Positions 8,720-23,047 of a stretch of DNA of 23,047 nt are shown piece after piece. Under the pieces are notes generated by a model. It made no database searches. It was not told the DNA's origin and saw only the letters and a program-made list of their open reading frames with translations. The position numbers were made by a program, and so were the translations under genes. How positions within the stretch are numbered: the first letter of the stretch is position 1; every line of letters starts with the position of its first letter. The stretch lies in NCBI GenBank assembly GCA_002747015.1, contig NVXI01000010.1, positions 1 through 23,047 of the forward strand, in the 5' to 3' direction. The DNA comes from Zetaproteobacteria bacterium (GTDB lineage Bacteria > Pseudomonadota > Alphaproteobacteria > Micavibrionales > Micavibrionaceae).

Positions 8720-10210
8720 TTAACTCTTTGATTCTGTTCTATAATTTGGTGCTTCACGGGTTATGGTTACATCATGGACATGGGACTCTTTAAAACCAGC
8801 ACTCGTCATGCGAATAAATTCTGTTTTGTCGTGCATTTCCTGAACGGTGGTACATCCTGTATAGCCCATAGAGGCACGTAGTCCGCCAACCATTTGGTGC
8901 AAAACATTTGCAACAGAGCCTTTATAGGGGACTCGTCCCTCGATCCCTTCGGGGACGAGTTTATTGCTTTGATTGACGTTACCTTGGAAGTAGCGGTCGG
9001 CAGATCCTTTAACCATTGCGCCAACACTGCCCATGCCGCGATAGGACTTGTATGAGCGTCCCTGAAATAAGATTACTTCACCTGGAGCCTCATCTGTTCC
9101 GGCGAAAACGCCGCCCATCATGGCTGCATTTGCGCCTGCTGCGATTGCTTTTGCAAAATCACCAGAGTATTTGATACCGCCATCTGCAATAACCGGAATG
9201 CCTTTTTTCTCACATGCGCTAACAACGTCCATAATCGCGGTTAGTTGCGGTACGCCAACGCCTGCAACAACGCGGGTTGTACAAATGGAACCCGGGCCAA
9301 TACCAACTTTAACAGAATTAGCACCAGCCTTAATCAACGCGGTTGCTGCGTCGGCTGTTGCGACATTGCCCGCCATGATTTGCAAAGTTGGATTTTCTGC
9401 ACGAATTTGGGCAACAGTATCAAGAACGGCACGAGAATGTCCGTGCGCGGTATCAACAACGACCAGATCAAGGCCAGCTTGTGCAAGTGCACTTGCACGT
9501 TGTATGCCATTTATATCACCTGTGCCAACGGCCGCGCCAGCGCGCAAACGATCTTGCGAATCTTTTGTTGCCATAGGAAAAAGTTTTGATTTCTCGATAT
9601 CTTTCACAGTCATAAGACCGATACAGTTACCCGCGTCATCGACGATCAATAGTTTTTCAATGCGGTGTTTATGTAGGAGTTTCTTGGCCTCATCTTTCGT
9701 GATGTTTACCGTTACTTTTACGAGGTTCTCATATGTCATTAATTCTTTGATTGGTTCGTCAGGGTTTTCTGCGAAGCGTACATCTCTATTTGTAAGGATA
9801 CCAACCAGACGGCCTGATGTTTCGGTAACCGGGATACCGGAAATTTTATGGGTGCTCATGAGTTCCCACGCATCAGCAAGCGTAGCATCGGGGCGAATTG
9901 TAATGGGATCAAGCACCATAGCAGATTCAAATCGTTTTACTTGTCGTACCAGCTTGGCTTGTTCATCGATCTCCATATTGCGGTGAATAATACCTAACCC
10001 GCCATTTTGCGCCATGGCAATGCCCATCTCTGCGCCGGTGACAGTATCCATAGCCGCAGATAAAACAGGGATGTTGAGCGATATTTCCTGAGTGATCTGT
10101 GTTGATGTATCAACCTCATTTGGTTGAACTTCTGATGCACCTGGAATAAGTAATACATCATCAAAAGTGAGTGCTTCACGAATTTTTGTAGAGTCTTTAA
10201 TACGAGCCAT
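8720..10210 (-). CDS. guaB: IMP dehydrogenase
   Basis: Oxidises IMP to XMP with NAD+, the committed step toward GMP. The 496-residue product has the complete family layout: a catalytic TIM barrel starting with [11 protein letters not shown] (14-24), an inserted pair of CBS domains at about 95-205, then the barrel continuing with the catalytic Cys310 in the GPGSICTTR loop. The flap region MVKGSADRY and the C-terminal [17 protein letters not shown] are typical. The start is supported by GGAG nine bases upstream of the ATG and by a recognisable promoter. The gene is monocistronic-looking, with its own upstream region and a different operon from guaA. The bacterial-type CBS pair suggests allosteric control by purine nucleotides, as known for the family. 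Confidence 0.98.
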
Positions 10211-10417: not shown

Positions 10418-10972
10418 ATGATACCTAGCAGTAATATGGCGCAGATGTATGTTAAAATAATAGGGGAGCAATCATTGTTAGCGATGGCGCAGAATAATTT
10501 GCTAAGTAATTTGGAGCGTATTGGCAAGGTTAGAACACATACATTTATCGAACATAACGGTCAGACAGAATTTGGTATTAGTAGAAATATTGGGTGTGAA
10601 CGGTATTATAGTTGGGAAGACACGATTATTGATTGCCGTAATAGTCCAGGTCTTGTCGATAGTGATGTGTTGCAGAATTTCTCTGAGTCGTTGGCCAGTA
10701 ATTCAAAATTTGAAAATTTTAAAGAGGATCTTGAGGATCGTGTGAATGGTTTGATTGCGATTATGCCATTTTACAGTGTTTTACGTGGTAAAGATAATAT
10801 GCGGTATAATATTAAACGTGCTGATAAGGTTGAAGATTTTGATATTATTCGTGTAGGTATACGCCTGAACGCACCTTGTGATCAAGATTTTAAACGTGGC
10901 CTGGAATGTCTGCGTGATTGGTCAAATCCATATAAGTTTAAGGGACCTGCTGTTCGTGTGTTGAGTTCATAA
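10418..10972 (+). CDS. Orphan 184-residue protein, first of a tandem paralogous pair
   Basis: Not recognised as any known family. It is a soluble, mixed alpha/beta-looking protein without signal peptide or membrane segment. It aligns end to end with the second 184-residue protein at 11084-11638: both start MIP. They share HTFIEHNGQT (41-50; partner HAFLENNGQT), YSWEDTI (64-70; partner YSWPDTEI), VGIRLNA (146-152; partner VGIKVCA), DFKRGL (157-162; partner DFEEGL) and a Trp eight to ten residues later. Identity elsewhere is low, so the duplication is old. A strong ribosome site AAGGAAGG (10402-10409) precedes the ATG, and a terminator follows the gene. Cysteines at 60, 73, 154 and 164 are not conserved in the partner. 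It is probably cytoplasmic, role unknown. Confidence 0.8.
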   Translation: MIPSSNMAQMYVKIIGEQSLLAMAQNNLLSNLERIGKVRTHTFIEHNGQTEFGISRNIGCERYYSWEDTIIDCRNSPGLVDSDVLQNFSESLASNSKFENFKEDLEDRVNGLIAIMPFYSVLRGKDNMRYNIKRADKVEDFDIIRVGIRLNAPCDQDFKRGLECLRDWSNPYKFKGPAVRVLSS

Positions 10973-11083: not shown

Positions 11084-11638
11084 ATGATTCCAAATACAGG
11101 CTTGTCAGGGGCTTTTTATAAGATGCGAAATGATGACGCATTGTTTTCAAAGGCGGCAAGTAATCTTTCTGGTCAGTTAGCTTATATTCAAAACCTTGGT
11201 TCTGGTGCGCATGCATTTTTAGAAAATAATGGTCAGACTGTTAGAGAAAACCCTCAAAAAGAAGTTGAACAATTTGGGAAGACTTATTCATGGCCTGATA
11301 CAGAAATAAACGCTCAATACCTTTCAGAAGCTGTTGATATTGAATCGATTGAGAAGAATATAGAGGGAAAAGCGGCGTTTAAGGTGTTGAAAGCGTATAT
11401 AAGTGAAGGTAGTGAAGGTGCTTTGAATGTTGTTCCATATGTACAGGAAAATGTGGTTTTAGAAGGCGGAAAAGATGTTTTATCTTCTGTGAATGTAGGG
11501 ATTAAGGTCTGTGCAAACTCTAAGGATGACTTTGAAGAAGGTTTGCAGAAATTTAAGGTATGGGAACGATCAAGTATGGCGGCTAATTTTCGCCCTATAA
11601 AATTTGATGGGAACAAAGAGTTTTCTCTGTTTTCGTGA
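11084..11638 (+). CDS. Orphan 184-residue protein, second of a tandem paralogous pair
   Basis: Not recognised. It has the same length as its upstream neighbour and the same order of conserved blocks: MIP start, HAFLENNGQT at 43-52, YSWPDTEI at 68-75, a VPY segment near 117-119 (MPFY in the partner), VGIKVCA at 138-144, DFEEGL at 149-154 and Trp160. There is no signal peptide or membrane segment, and the C-terminus is NKEFSLFS. Possible ribosome site AAGGTGA at 11072-11078. The preceding terminator means it needs its own promoter within about 35 bases, or read-through. It ends 26 bases before the convergent rlmE gene. The conserved NGQT and YSWxDT blocks are the best candidates for a functional site. 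No role can be assigned. Confidence 0.8.
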   Translation: MIPNTGLSGAFYKMRNDDALFSKAASNLSGQLAYIQNLGSGAHAFLENNGQTVRENPQKEVEQFGKTYSWPDTEINAQYLSEAVDIESIEKNIEGKAAFKVLKAYISEGSEGALNVVPYVQENVVLEGGKDVLSSVNVGIKVCANSKDDFEEGLQKFKVWERSSMAANFRPIKFDGNKEFSLFS

Positions 11639-17983: not shown

Positions 17984-18015
17984 CGCATTGTTTTTCTTTG
18001 CGGCATAATAAAGCT

Positions 18016-18672
18016 ATGCAAATTACCCTGACACCCGATATTTTGCTGGCGGCCTATTCTCAGGGCTTGTTCCCGATGGCGCAAAGCGCAGATAATCCAG
18101 AGATACATTGGTTTTGTCCTGAGGTTCGCGGGCAGCTTTCTATTCCTGATATGCATATTCCACGTCGTTTAAAGAAAAACGTTCGTCAAATGAAAATCGG
18201 GGGGCAGCCCTATGAAATCCGTCTAAACACGGACTTTAAGGGGGTTATGCTGGCTTGTGCAAATATGAGCGATAACCGCGAAGAGACGTGGATTAATGCA
18301 GAAATTTTAACTGCCTATTGTGCACTTCATGTGCGCGGATATGCCCATTCTGTCGAATGTTGGCAAGATAATAAAATGGTTGGTGGCTTGTACGGTATTG
18401 CTTTGGGCGGTGCATTCTTTGGCGAGAGCATGTTCTGTCTTGCGCGTGATGCCAGTAAGGTTGCTTTGGTGCATTTGGTTGCGCGTCTGGATTGGGCAGG
18501 CTACAAAATTCTTGATACACAATTCATAAATGATCATTTAGAGCAATTCGGTGTGCATGAAGTGCCGCATCAAGTCTATATGAAAACGTTGGAGGCGGCA
18601 TTGCATATCGCTTGTAAATTCGATTCTCAGGAACGATTAGAGAAAGATTTGATCACCCAGTATTTATCGTGA
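18016..18672 (+). CDS. aat: Leucyl/phenylalanyl-tRNA-protein transferase
   Basis: Adds Leu or Phe from aminoacyl-tRNA to proteins with N-terminal Lys or Arg, marking them for ClpS/ClpAP degradation. The product is about 218 residues and contains the family signatures LLAAYSQGLFPMA, WFCPEVRG, GYAHSVECW and GGLYGIALGGAFFGESMF. The start was set at the ATG at 18016, giving MQITLTPDILL. An in-frame TTG at 17998 would add six atypical residues. No strong ribosome site is visible. It is linked to accC, as usual in Alphaproteobacteria, and convergent with the DUF2155 gene, with stops two bases apart. A partial clpA, the downstream partner in the N-degron pathway, lies at the far end of the window. 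Confidence 0.95.
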   Translation: MQITLTPDILLAAYSQGLFPMAQSADNPEIHWFCPEVRGQLSIPDMHIPRRLKKNVRQMKIGGQPYEIRLNTDFKGVMLACANMSDNREETWINAEILTAYCALHVRGYAHSVECWQDNKMVGGLYGIALGGAFFGESMFCLARDASKVALVHLVARLDWAGYKILDTQFINDHLEQFGVHEVPHQVYMKTLEAALHIACKFDSQERLEKDLITQYLS

Positions 18673-20116: not shown

Positions 20117-20195
20117 AATTTATATTTTCTTGTTGCGAATTAAAATTTCGCTGCGATTATGACAGAGGATGAATGAATCTGAAAGGGTAAAACAC

Positions 20196-20657
20196 ATGAA
20201 TATTCAAACAAAACTACAAGACTTAGGCTTATCCCTTCCAAGTGTTGCGGCGCCTGCGGCGAATTATGTGCCATATGTAATTTCAGGAAAGACATTGTTT
20301 GTTTCTGGGCAAATACCTTTCTTGAATGGCGAGAAAATGCACTTGGGGCGCGTTGGCGATAATGTGAGTGTTGAGGACGGCGTGAAAGCGGCACAGGCGT
20401 GTGCCTTGAATATTTTGGCGCAGGTGAATGAAGCCGTTGATGGCGATTGGTTAAAGGTAGAGCGTTGTATAAAATTGGGGGGCTTTGTGAACTGCACGCC
20501 TGATTTTACGGATCAGCCGATTGTGATTAATGGTGCATCGAATTTAATTGCCGATGTTATGGGTGCGGCAGGTAAACATGCCCGTTTTGCCGTAGGTGTG
20601 CCGTCATTGCCACTTGGTGTGTCTGTTGAAATTGACGCTGTGTTTGAGTTGGTTTAG
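20196..20657 (+). CDS. RidA (YjgF/YER057c/UK114) family protein
   Basis: A 153-residue member of the Rid superfamily. Canonical RidA hydrolyses reactive enamine/imine intermediates released by PLP enzymes. The protein contains SGKTLFVSGQIP (39-50), CALNILAQV, CIKLGGFVNCTPDFTDQP and ARFAVGVPSLPLGVSVEIDAVFE. The Arg of ARFAV aligns with the catalytic Arg105 of RidA, and the glutamate of VEIDAV is present, so activity is possible. It is longer than the 128-residue RidA and fits the subgroup with an N-terminal LGLSLP segment. The start at 20196 is preferred over the ATG at 20169 because AAAGGG lies about nine bases upstream of it. Confidence 0.88.
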   Translation: MNIQTKLQDLGLSLPSVAAPAANYVPYVISGKTLFVSGQIPFLNGEKMHLGRVGDNVSVEDGVKAAQACALNILAQVNEAVDGDWLKVERCIKLGGFVNCTPDFTDQPIVINGASNLIADVMGAAGKHARFAVGVPSLPLGVSVEIDAVFELV

Positions 20658-21137: not shown

Positions 21138-22019
21138 TTAGTCGTCCAATTTATTATCTAACGCTTTCCAGCGTTCAAACATGATCATGGCATCATCATG
21201 CCCAAGTTGAGTGTATTGGGTTTCTTTCTGCTCTTTGTTGGTGAGTTCGGCGCGAACTTTATTCTCCCGAGAGCGGATTATATTGATTTCTTTGTGGCTA
21301 AGTCCGTAGTAGACGTGCCTAATGCCAACGCTGATGATAAGGGCCTGTCCCATCATTGTTGGTTCGCTGGAGCAATATAAGAGACAATCGGATAAATCGG
21401 ATTGTCCAAGTTTTTCGACGGCCTTTCTGATCGCCATAATTTCGGCGTGCGCAGTCGGGTCAACGCGTGACGTAATGCCATTCGTGCCTTCACTCAGAAT
21501 TTTTCCTTGCGAATCTGCAATCACTGCGCCGAAAGGTCCACCTTTTCTAGTCTTGGCGTTTCGTTCTGCTAGATCTATTGCCCGTTGCATCAATTGGTCG
21601 TGTGAGTATTGTAGGCTACGGGTTATGACGGGCTCTATATTTAGATTGTGCCCGTATCGTTTCAAAACATGTTGGGCGACACTTATCAGTCTGTCTGGCT
21701 CCACAGGTTTTTGTAGGACACGTGTCACACCCAGCTCAGTTGCGCGAATAAGGATATCACTTGAATCATCTGCGGTAATAATAACGACGGGTAACTTTAT
21801 GCCATGTGTGACCAAATATTTTACAAATTCAAAGCCGCCTTTTGGCTCCATATTTAAATCTACCAGTGCCAGAGCAATGACGTGTTCTTTGGTTGCTTGT
21901 ATCGCCGCCTCACCATCAGATGCAGGAATAATGGTATATCCTTGCGTGCTTAGGATGCTGCTCATCAATTCACGGCTTATTTCGTTGTCTTCGGCGATTA
22001 AAATATTGATATTGTTCAT
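21138..22019 (-). CDS. Response regulator receiver fused to a deaminase-like domain lacking zinc cysteines
   Basis: A 293-residue two-domain protein. Residues 4-120 form a receiver domain with all key residues: acidic pair Glu10/Asp11 (IAEDNE), phosphoacceptor Asp54 (ALVDLNM), Thr82 (VVIITADD) and Lys104-Pro105 (LQKPVEP). Residues 140-293 match the guanine/nucleoside deaminase fold: GGPFGAVIAD (160-169), HAE (191-193, His191 and Glu193), DCLLYCSSEP (211-220) and a guanine-deaminase-like end AMIMFERWKALDNK. Where active enzymes have the zinc motif CxxC (EPCPMCxG), this protein reads EPTMMGQ, with Thr221 and Gly224 at the cysteine positions. It is therefore probably an inactive binding or signalling domain under phosphorylation control. 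An in-frame GTG upstream gives three extra residues; the ATG is preferred. No histidine kinase is nearby. Confidence 0.88.
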   Translation of the reverse strand: MNNINILIAEDNEISRELMSSILSTQGYTIIPASDGEAAIQATKEHVIALALVDLNMEPKGGFEFVKYLVTHGIKLPVVIITADDSSDILIRATELGVTRVLQKPVEPDRLISVAQHVLKRYGHNLNIEPVITRSLQYSHDQLMQRAIDLAERNAKTRKGGPFGAVIADSQGKILSEGTNGITSRVDPTAHAEIMAIRKAVEKLGQSDLSDCLLYCSSEPTMMGQALIISVGIRHVYYGLSHKEINIIRSRENKVRAELTNKEQKETQYTQLGHDDAMIMFERWKALDNKLDD

Positions 22020-22114
22020 ATAAAACACTCTAAAATGTTTTGTTTTGGGATAATATAGCCTCATGCTACAGTAAGATGATTAAAAAAACCTATTAAAGAA
22101 TATACAATTTTATT

Positions 22115-22825
22115 ATGATATCGGCAAATCGTCATATAAAAACACAATCAGGAAATGTTCTCTTTATCATTTTGATCGCAGTGGTATTGTTTGCCGCGCT
22201 TTCGTTTGTGACCTCGACAATGATGCGTGGTGGTGCGAATATTGGGCGGGAAAAAGCTGGGATTTATGTATCTGAAATTCTGACATATTCACGTAGCTTA
22301 AGTGAATCTGTGCGCTTTATACGCATTTCAAATGAGTGCGCCGTAGAAGATGTTAGCTTTGAGCGTAGTCCGTTTGATGGCTCTGATACGGACTATGTTA
22401 ACGGCAGTGCGCCATCGGATTATTCTTGCCATGTATTTCATCCCGATGGTGGCGGTGTGGCGTATAGTGAGATGCATCCGGAAATTTTTGATAGTGCCTA
22501 TAGTGGATCTCCGAATTATGAGCAATGGATTATCAGTGGCTCAGCAAAAGTGATTGGGCTTGGCAGTGACAGCGCGGGGGAGCTTATTCTAGCTTTACCC
22601 TATTTGAAAAAATCTGTTTGTGAGATTTTAGCCAAGAGATTAGAGCAATCAATTCCTATTCCTATTGATGGTGTTGGGGGAATTGATCTTACGAAATTTG
22701 TGGGTAGCTATGCCTCAACGTCAACATATGATTTTGTCGATAATATGATGGTAGGGTGCATAAACGTTACCTCAGGGGGTGACCCTCGGTCTTATACTTT
22801 CTTTTCAGTTTTAATCCGGCGCTAG
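22115..22825 (+). CDS. Prepilin-like membrane-anchored exported protein, function unknown
   Basis: A 236-residue protein with a short polar N-terminus (SANRHIKTQSGN) followed by one long hydrophobic helix (about 14-34), then a soluble domain presumably outside the inner membrane. The layout of a Gly-polar junction before a 20-residue helix resembles type IV prepilins and pseudopilins. However, the usual Phe at +1 and Glu at +5 are not present, so processing by a prepilin peptidase is doubtful. Four cysteines (75, 105, 169, 215) could form two disulfides. No ribosome site is evident. It is divergent from the receiver-deaminase gene, 95 bases apart. Confidence 0.65.
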   Translation: MISANRHIKTQSGNVLFIILIAVVLFAALSFVTSTMMRGGANIGREKAGIYVSEILTYSRSLSESVRFIRISNECAVEDVSFERSPFDGSDTDYVNGSAPSDYSCHVFHPDGGGVAYSEMHPEIFDSAYSGSPNYEQWIISGSAKVIGLGSDSAGELILALPYLKKSVCEILAKRLEQSIPIPIDGVGGIDLTKFVGSYASTSTYDFVDNMMVGCINVTSGGDPRSYTFFSVLIRR

Positions 22826-22849: not shown

Positions 22850-23047
22850 TTAGACTTTTTCTTTGGTTTTTGATTTTTTCCGACGATTTTTAGGTGTGAG
22901 GGCTTCATATTTGAAGGTTAATTCTTCGCCATCATAATCAATCATAACCAAGCCACCTTTTTCGAGTTTTCCAAATAGGATTTCTTCTGCCAGAGGGCGT
23001 TTGATTTTCTCTAGGATAATGCGGCTCAGTGGACGTGCGCCCATGGT
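22850..23047 (-). CDS. clpA: ATP-dependent Clp protease ATP-binding subunit ClpA, C-terminal part (cut by window edge)
   Basis: Only the last 65 residues are present; the gene continues beyond 23047. The visible part, MGARPLSRIILEKIKRPLAEEILFG followed by KLEKGG, matches the C-terminal D2 small domain of ClpA/ClpB-type unfoldases, including the GARPLSR sensor-2 segment. It ends in a very basic tail (KNRRKKSKTKEK). The length and form after the sensor-2 segment fit ClpA rather than ClpB. ClpA feeds substrates to ClpP; with ClpS it degrades proteins tagged by Aat, whose gene is in this window. Confidence 0.85.
   Translation of the reverse strand, partial: TMGARPLSRIILEKIKRPLAEEILFGKLEKGGLVMIDYDGEELTFKYEALTPKNRRKKSKTKEKV

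Follow-up and report, generated by a model that had tools for sequence, protein, structure and literature searches.

A receiver joined to a zinc-free guanine-deaminase fold: a putative response regulator of Micavibrio-type bacteria

What can a response regulator do with an output domain that is built like a guanine deaminase and has lost the cysteines that hold the zinc? This question is raised by a gene at 21138..22019 on the reverse strand (ATG at 22019) of the window, the whole 23,047-nucleotide stretch analysed here. The gene encodes a protein of 293 aa combining a receiver with a zinc-free guanine-deaminase fold. An alternative in-frame ATG at 22064 would give 308 aa; the start of most aligned relatives lies near that of the 293-aa form.

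Domain composition of the window protein

The receiver occupies residues 6-114 (21678..22004, reverse strand; Pfam Response_reg, 1.5e-22), and the receiver fold, acidic pair, Asp54, Thr82 and Lys104 of a two-component response regulator are present. The deaminase-fold domain spans residues 139-290 (21150..21605, reverse strand). It was recognized by Pfam (dCMP_cyt_deam_1 on residues 139-239, 3.4e-21), by phmmer, in which residues 139-290 matched the B. subtilis guanine deaminase 1wkq (5.3e-22), and by Foldseek, in which the first AF2 model matched guanine and guanosine deaminases, TadA and receivers. In the VIA comparison, receivers alone appeared among the 50 rows listed, so this comparison bears on the receiver half only. 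Mean pLDDT of the AF2 models was 83.9 with 35 sequences and 86.4 with 97 sequences; because pTM was 0.51 and 0.53, respectively, the domain arrangement in these models is unsure. Relatives of the protein were sought in viral contigs, where none was found. Altogether, Pfam, phmmer and alignment agree on the union of a receiver (D54, T82, K104) with a deaminase-fold domain that the initial annotation had described.

In both sequence and fold, the second half comes closest to bacterial guanine deaminase (1wkq, 1tiy) and to plant guanosine deaminase (7dbf). In the plant enzyme, His80, Cys110 and Cys113 hold the zinc, with Glu82 as the base; the substrate is anchored by Asn69, and the C-terminal Tyr185 caps the site (PMC9739398). 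The window protein shows the fold and the sequence kinship of a guanine deaminase, but of the ligands His, Cys and Cys only the His stays; Thr and Gly replace the Cys pair, and the capping Tyr is absent, the protein ending in D. It had been claimed that HAE is kept and that the second zinc motif is altered, and both points hold. H191-A192-E193 (21441..21449, reverse strand) retains the former zinc His and the catalytic Glu. In SSEPTMMG (residues 217-224; 21348..21371, reverse strand), T221 and G224 stand at the zinc-cysteine positions, and SSEPTMMGQ aligns without gaps to SCEPCPMCL of 1wkq. D54, T82, K104, H191, E193, T221 and G224 all align with the expected receiver or deaminase positions.

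A clade-wide loss of the zinc cysteines under purifying selection

One protein search gave 489 relatives and another 936, with 120 listed in each and only 8000 candidates scored in the second. The matches listed comprise 205 different proteins, the window's own included, and these form the database set. T221, H191 and E193 were found in all 205, G224 and Ala192 in 201 each, and PCxxC in none of the 205. When 142 genomes of one order were searched with the fusion profile, 50 matched at E<=1e-40, namely 43 zinc-free fusions (one, in G085, incomplete at a contig end), 5 intact-zinc fusions and 2 receivers only. The alignment contains 41 genome copies, all with T221. Its 246 zinc-free rows thus combine 205 database and 41 genome sequences, two overlapping sets in which 16 genome copies match a database protein over the last 200 aa; the 14 zinc relatives beside them are 9 intact fusions and 5 lone enzymes. 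Furthermore, 29 of 80 relative loci were examined, and the first 20 (L001-L020), hosted by Micavibrio or other alphaproteobacterial MAGs, carry receiver fusions that are all zinc-free, with the deaminase part alone visible in the incomplete L020. Among 385 class-sampled genomes, with at most six candidates scored per genome, only the centre genome itself gave a match including the receiver at E<=1e-50.

The zinc-free deaminase domains form one clade (44 rows) with an SH-aLRT of 98. One member, the fusion of G104, lacks the zinc His as well. The replacement of C/C by T/G throughout the clade, proposed as a check in the initial annotation, was borne out, T221 being present in 205/205 database and 41/41 genome copies and G224 in nearly all. 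Homologues with intact CxxC, which had been regarded as a sign of a local mutation or sequencing error, do exist, but they belong to different lineages within the order; the loss of the zinc cysteines is thus old and clade-wide, and no local mutation. Within the 43 genomes carrying zinc-free fusions, another guanine deaminase with a match rivalling that of the zinc enzymes was found in one (G110), in a gene with PCxxC.

Searching with the intact type yielded nine intact fusions in their family (18 genomes), with the motifs confirmed, and four further ones elsewhere in the order (G009-G012). Their domain order is that of the zinc-free fusions. All nine have the zinc motif and D54, and none of the nine has the full phosphorylation set, in contrast to the zinc-free fusions, where it is complete in 205/205 database proteins and 34/41 genome copies. 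The receiver of the zinc-free clade accordingly appears phosphorylatable, as had been supposed. In 4/41 genome copies (G041, G109, G110 and G111), the phospho-Asp is absent and the zinc-free domain is kept all the same, so phosphorylation is not always needed. A single origin of the zinc-free and intact fusion clades was neither demonstrated nor rejected by the deaminase half, with AU p values of 0.15 and 0.12. In the receiver tree, the receivers of intact fusions lie on a long branch; a topology with lone receivers nested among fused ones was favoured, and constraining the fused ones together was not rejected, with an AU p of 0.076.

A zinc loss that, judged by similarity, is apparently separate from that of the main clade was encountered in the fusion of G007 (L225:3755-4965), where the motifs read TSKAV for TAHAE and SEPEPMS for CEPCPMC, so that the Glu is missing along with every one of the three zinc ligands. 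The remainder is guanine-deaminase-like with the terminal Tyr present; the receiver-like stretch has no Pfam receiver match, and the gene adjoins a lone receiver that, on our reading of the sequence, resembles DivK. Among the 120 relatives listed for it, 23 of 24 other fusion-sized proteins keep PCxxC, including the nearest listed relative (46%), and the exception is P0265 with CEPCAMG. P0265 and the lone protein P0288 (CEPSPMC) may represent further single-cysteine losses.

The zinc-free domain is under strong purifying selection. Its dN/dS was 0.007-0.064 in six of eight pairs; the other two pairs were saturated, dS was near 2 in three of the six usable ones, and some genomes were used twice. 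Across the 246 zinc-free rows, T221 occurs in 246, G224 in 239, H191 in 245, E193 in 246, N154 in 245 and R185 in 241, and the 14 zinc relatives share the H and the E but have C at 221 and 224, K at 154 and T/S/I at 185. R185 was also found in one lone zinc deaminase (L043). S218, nearly fixed in the zinc-free clade, corresponds to C in the 14 zinc relatives, and Ser230, present in 205/205 database zinc-free rows, to Trp. By sequence position, N154, R185, S218, T221, G224 and S230 lie mostly at or beside the old motifs, and of the 20 positions in the deaminase part that are at least 98% conserved, 12 fall within residues 187-198 and 220-221. The counterpart of the substrate-anchoring Asn, N180, is kept in 186/205 database fusions. 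Compared with the deaminases of known structure, the window clade thus keeps His, Glu and mostly Asn, lacks the zinc cysteines and the Trp, and has gained a receiver; the terminal Tyr, present in 14/14 zinc relatives, survives in 1/205 database and 2/41 genome zinc-free rows. The purine binding suggested in the initial annotation is thus no more than a possibility, the Asn being mostly kept but the Trp and nearly always the Tyr lost. From these alignment positions, it looks as if the old site has been put to another use and has not decayed.

Gene neighbourhood and the recurrence of clpA

The 3' end of clpA (22850..23047, reverse strand), whose translation agrees with the C-terminal part of L001 ClpA, is cut off at the window edge. 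Between clpA and the fusion lies c8, a divergent 236-aa gene (22115..22825, forward strand; no Pfam match) that is often found there in relatives; its N-terminus reads as hydrophobic and pilin-like. Recurring neighbours in the window also include a RidA/YjgF gene (20169..20657, forward strand; Pfam) and a candidate aat recognized as an ORF and by clustering (17998..18672, forward strand), which presumably encodes leucyl/phenylalanyl-tRNA-protein transferase. The recurring order is clpS, clpA, c8 (divergent), fusion, RidA, NDUFA12-like, MlaD-like, DUF2155-like, Aat, AccC and AccB; Pfam confirmed ClpA, RidA, phasin and peptidase S11 among the neighbours, the remaining names being our reading of the sequence. 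The 23-kb window also contains genes at 146-1720 and 8720-10210 that we take to be guaA (GMP synthase) and guaB (IMP dehydrogenase), so these share it with the former guanine deaminase, and two adjoining, paralogue-like 184-aa proteins of one shared cluster (10418-10972 and 11084-11638).

Stretches centred on the fusion or on clpA were compared for 134 of the 142 genomes (all except G009, G012, G016, G086, G093, G118, G130 and G138). A ClpA-like gene was present in the stretch of 28/43 zinc-free fusions, with at most one gene between in 20; both counts include G002, placed by hand, and fall to 27 and 19 without it. In the other 15 genomes, clpA was on another contig in 12, about 15 kb away in two (G102, G103), and without a search match in one (G085). 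As the assemblies are fragmented, a clpA on another contig may still be near. In G005 and G059, the fusion directly follows a ClpA-like gene on the same strand; in G005 this gene is a divergent ClpA paralogue, separated from the fusion by 31 bases, and the canonical clpA is on another contig. In G105-G107, the fusion and clpA converge and overlap slightly.

The same locus houses the other gene states. Each of the nine intact fusions directly follows clpA in the same orientation, with clpS seen too in six, and the five lone zinc guanine deaminases found at clpA lie directly behind it as well. Lone receivers, which came to light because clpA stretches were examined, occur near clpA in 14 genomes; in seven of these the receiver follows clpA immediately, and in 13 no more than one gene separates the two. 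The full phosphorylation set is present in 13 of the 14 lone receivers. The clpA stretch contains neither domain in 61/134 genomes, G002 being excluded; before this exclusion there were 62 such stretches, three of which end less than 1500 bases from clpA. No ClpA-like gene was present in the stretches of 18 lone guanine deaminases outside the clpA locus (0/18), and no clpA was seen in the fetched stretches of the fusions of G009-G012 and G007. G027 and G028 (L141, L142) were dropped as carriers of zinc guanine deaminases at clpA, their sequences resembling TadA; a tadA-like gene lies close behind clpA in both.

In several genomes, a second, strongly diverged ClpA paralogue lies behind clpA. 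Such paralogues, 30-53% identical to L001 ClpA, were noted in L017, L082, L094, L139, L160 and L180; those in L094, L139, L160 and L180 are in tandem with the canonical copy, and that of L017 shows no Clp_N among the best 25 of 26 families. In a quick FastTree phylogeny of ClpA, covering 24 of the 43 zinc-free genomes and with paralogues mixed in at rows G059, G031, G053 and G055, the gene states were scattered.

Proposed function and its alternatives

Taken as a whole, we assign a probability of about 0.5 to the reading that the fusion is a response regulator in which a former guanine deaminase with a rebuilt pocket serves as the output, acting in an adaptor-like manner with ClpA as its likeliest partner. 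The metal site was lost yet the domain is strongly preserved, so in these bacteria, relatives of the predator Micavibrio, the old enzyme seems to have been turned into a regulator. On the best reading of the altered motifs, the output domain would no longer bind the catalytic zinc, and it very probably does not deaminate. Switching of the fusion by phosphorylation is likely, with phosphorylated Asp54 setting the activity of the output domain or its binding of a partner. A ligand pocket is somewhat less secure and still favoured: the retained H191 and E193 and the nearly fixed T221, G224, S218, S230, R185 and N154 would suit an active site that was rebuilt and not abandoned, and the domain would most likely bind another protein, with a small ligand in this site perhaps acting as the gate. 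ClpA (ClpAP) is a tentative choice of partner. It is the best candidate on two grounds: clpA is the neighbour that the four gene states have in common, and RssB and CpdR show that receivers control Clp proteolysis. The fusion might thus be an adaptor or inhibitor of ClpAP, comparable to RssB for ClpXP and to CpdR around ClpXP.

RssB of E. coli consists of a receiver and an output fold without active-site residues and is an adaptor of ClpXP (PMC7226468). The likeness lies in a receiver followed by a C-terminal enzyme fold missing its active-site residues. The differences lie in the fold, PPM/PP2C phosphatase versus deaminase, and in the Clp protein concerned, RssB working with ClpX and clpA being the neighbouring gene here. 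The RssB model NF007969 was the top NCBIfam match of the window receiver, at 65 bits against a cut-off of 329, so the window protein is not an RssB member; its output has the deaminase fold in place of a PP2C-like one. CpdR, a lone receiver of Caulobacter, recruits ClpX, and its phosphorylation state controls Clp proteolysis in this bacterial class (PMC11519897). The receivers found on their own near clpA, in 14 genomes, are comparable in being lone receivers, but CpdR serves ClpX. The CpdR model scored 49.5, 42.0 and 33.8 bits with three of these 14 receivers, below its cut-off of 180, and CpdR was absent from the best 25 of 87 families for the window protein.

The strongest alternative holds that the fusion is a phospho-controlled sensor of a nucleotide or another small molecule, with a target unrelated to ClpA and with clpA as a bystander of gene order. 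It agrees with the clustering of 12 of the 20 most conserved positions around the old active-site motifs and with the many clpA loci (61/134) that have neither domain beside them. RidA, NDUFA12, DUF2155 and Aat are, moreover, often retained even without clpA in the stretch, as in G104 (RidA, NDUFA12, DUF2155) and G110 (NDUFA12, DUF2155, Aat); since the neighbours on the RidA/NDUFA12 side are conserved too, shared gene order may explain much. We nevertheless hold this alternative to be rather unlikely, clpA being the neighbour shared by lone zinc deaminases and lone receivers as well as by the intact fusions and many of the zinc-free ones.

A zinc-free enzyme performing new chemistry through His191, Glu193 and Thr221, possibly aided by a different metal, is less probable still. 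The near-invariance of these residues (245, 246 and 246 of 246 rows) exceeds what a scaffold should need, but one of three zinc ligands is left, the His is gone too in G104, and the receiver occurs without a deaminase domain at 14 clpA loci. Continued guanine deamination with zinc held by displaced ligands, Cys212 or Cys216, is very improbable. C212 is present in 204/205 and C216 in 172/205 database fusions, and one source labels several of these proteins guanine deaminase; C212, however, occurs in all 14 zinc relatives and is therefore no compensating gain, C216 is replaced in 33/205, and the terminal Tyr shared by 14/14 zinc relatives is down to 1/205. Finally, a sequencing error is ruled out as the source of the lost motif by the clade-wide Thr, and a decaying domain, favoured by the lost motif and nothing more, can practically be dismissed given an identical Thr in 205/205 listed database proteins and a dN/dS far below 1 in the six computable pairs.

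Deaminase folds without deamination are familiar from Tad3/ADAT3 and from enzymes that share the fold but carry no zinc, AICAR transformylase among them; we know of no protein of either type fused to a receiver. No description of an inactive deaminase-fold output on a receiver was found among the open papers listed in literature searches, and in an article on M. aeruginosavorus the terms deaminase, guanine, ClpA and response regulator do not occur, while 'two-component' appears twice (PMC3189940). The 'new kind of two-component output' announced in the initial annotation was nevertheless overstated, because RssB already joins a receiver to an output fold without active-site residues; receivers whose output is a dead enzyme are thus already known as a type. 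If our interpretation is true, the deaminase would be the second fold, after the dead phosphatase of RssB, by which a dead enzyme has become the output of a receiver. The names given by sources among the matches listed are guanine deaminase, TadA/CheY-like protein and response regulator, and caution is needed where some of these proteins are still labelled guanine deaminase.

All four gene states, the lone enzyme, the intact fusion, the dead fusion and the lone receiver, survive within a single order. It is conceivable, though doubtful in its entirety, that a guanine deaminase settled behind clpA, was joined to a receiver and underwent zinc-site loss on more than one occasion. The outcome in Micavibrio-type bacteria would be a phospho- and ligand-gated ClpAP adaptor that would tie purine or other nucleotide status to regulated proteolysis. 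The fusion provides a concrete candidate for receiver-controlled ClpAP proteolysis.
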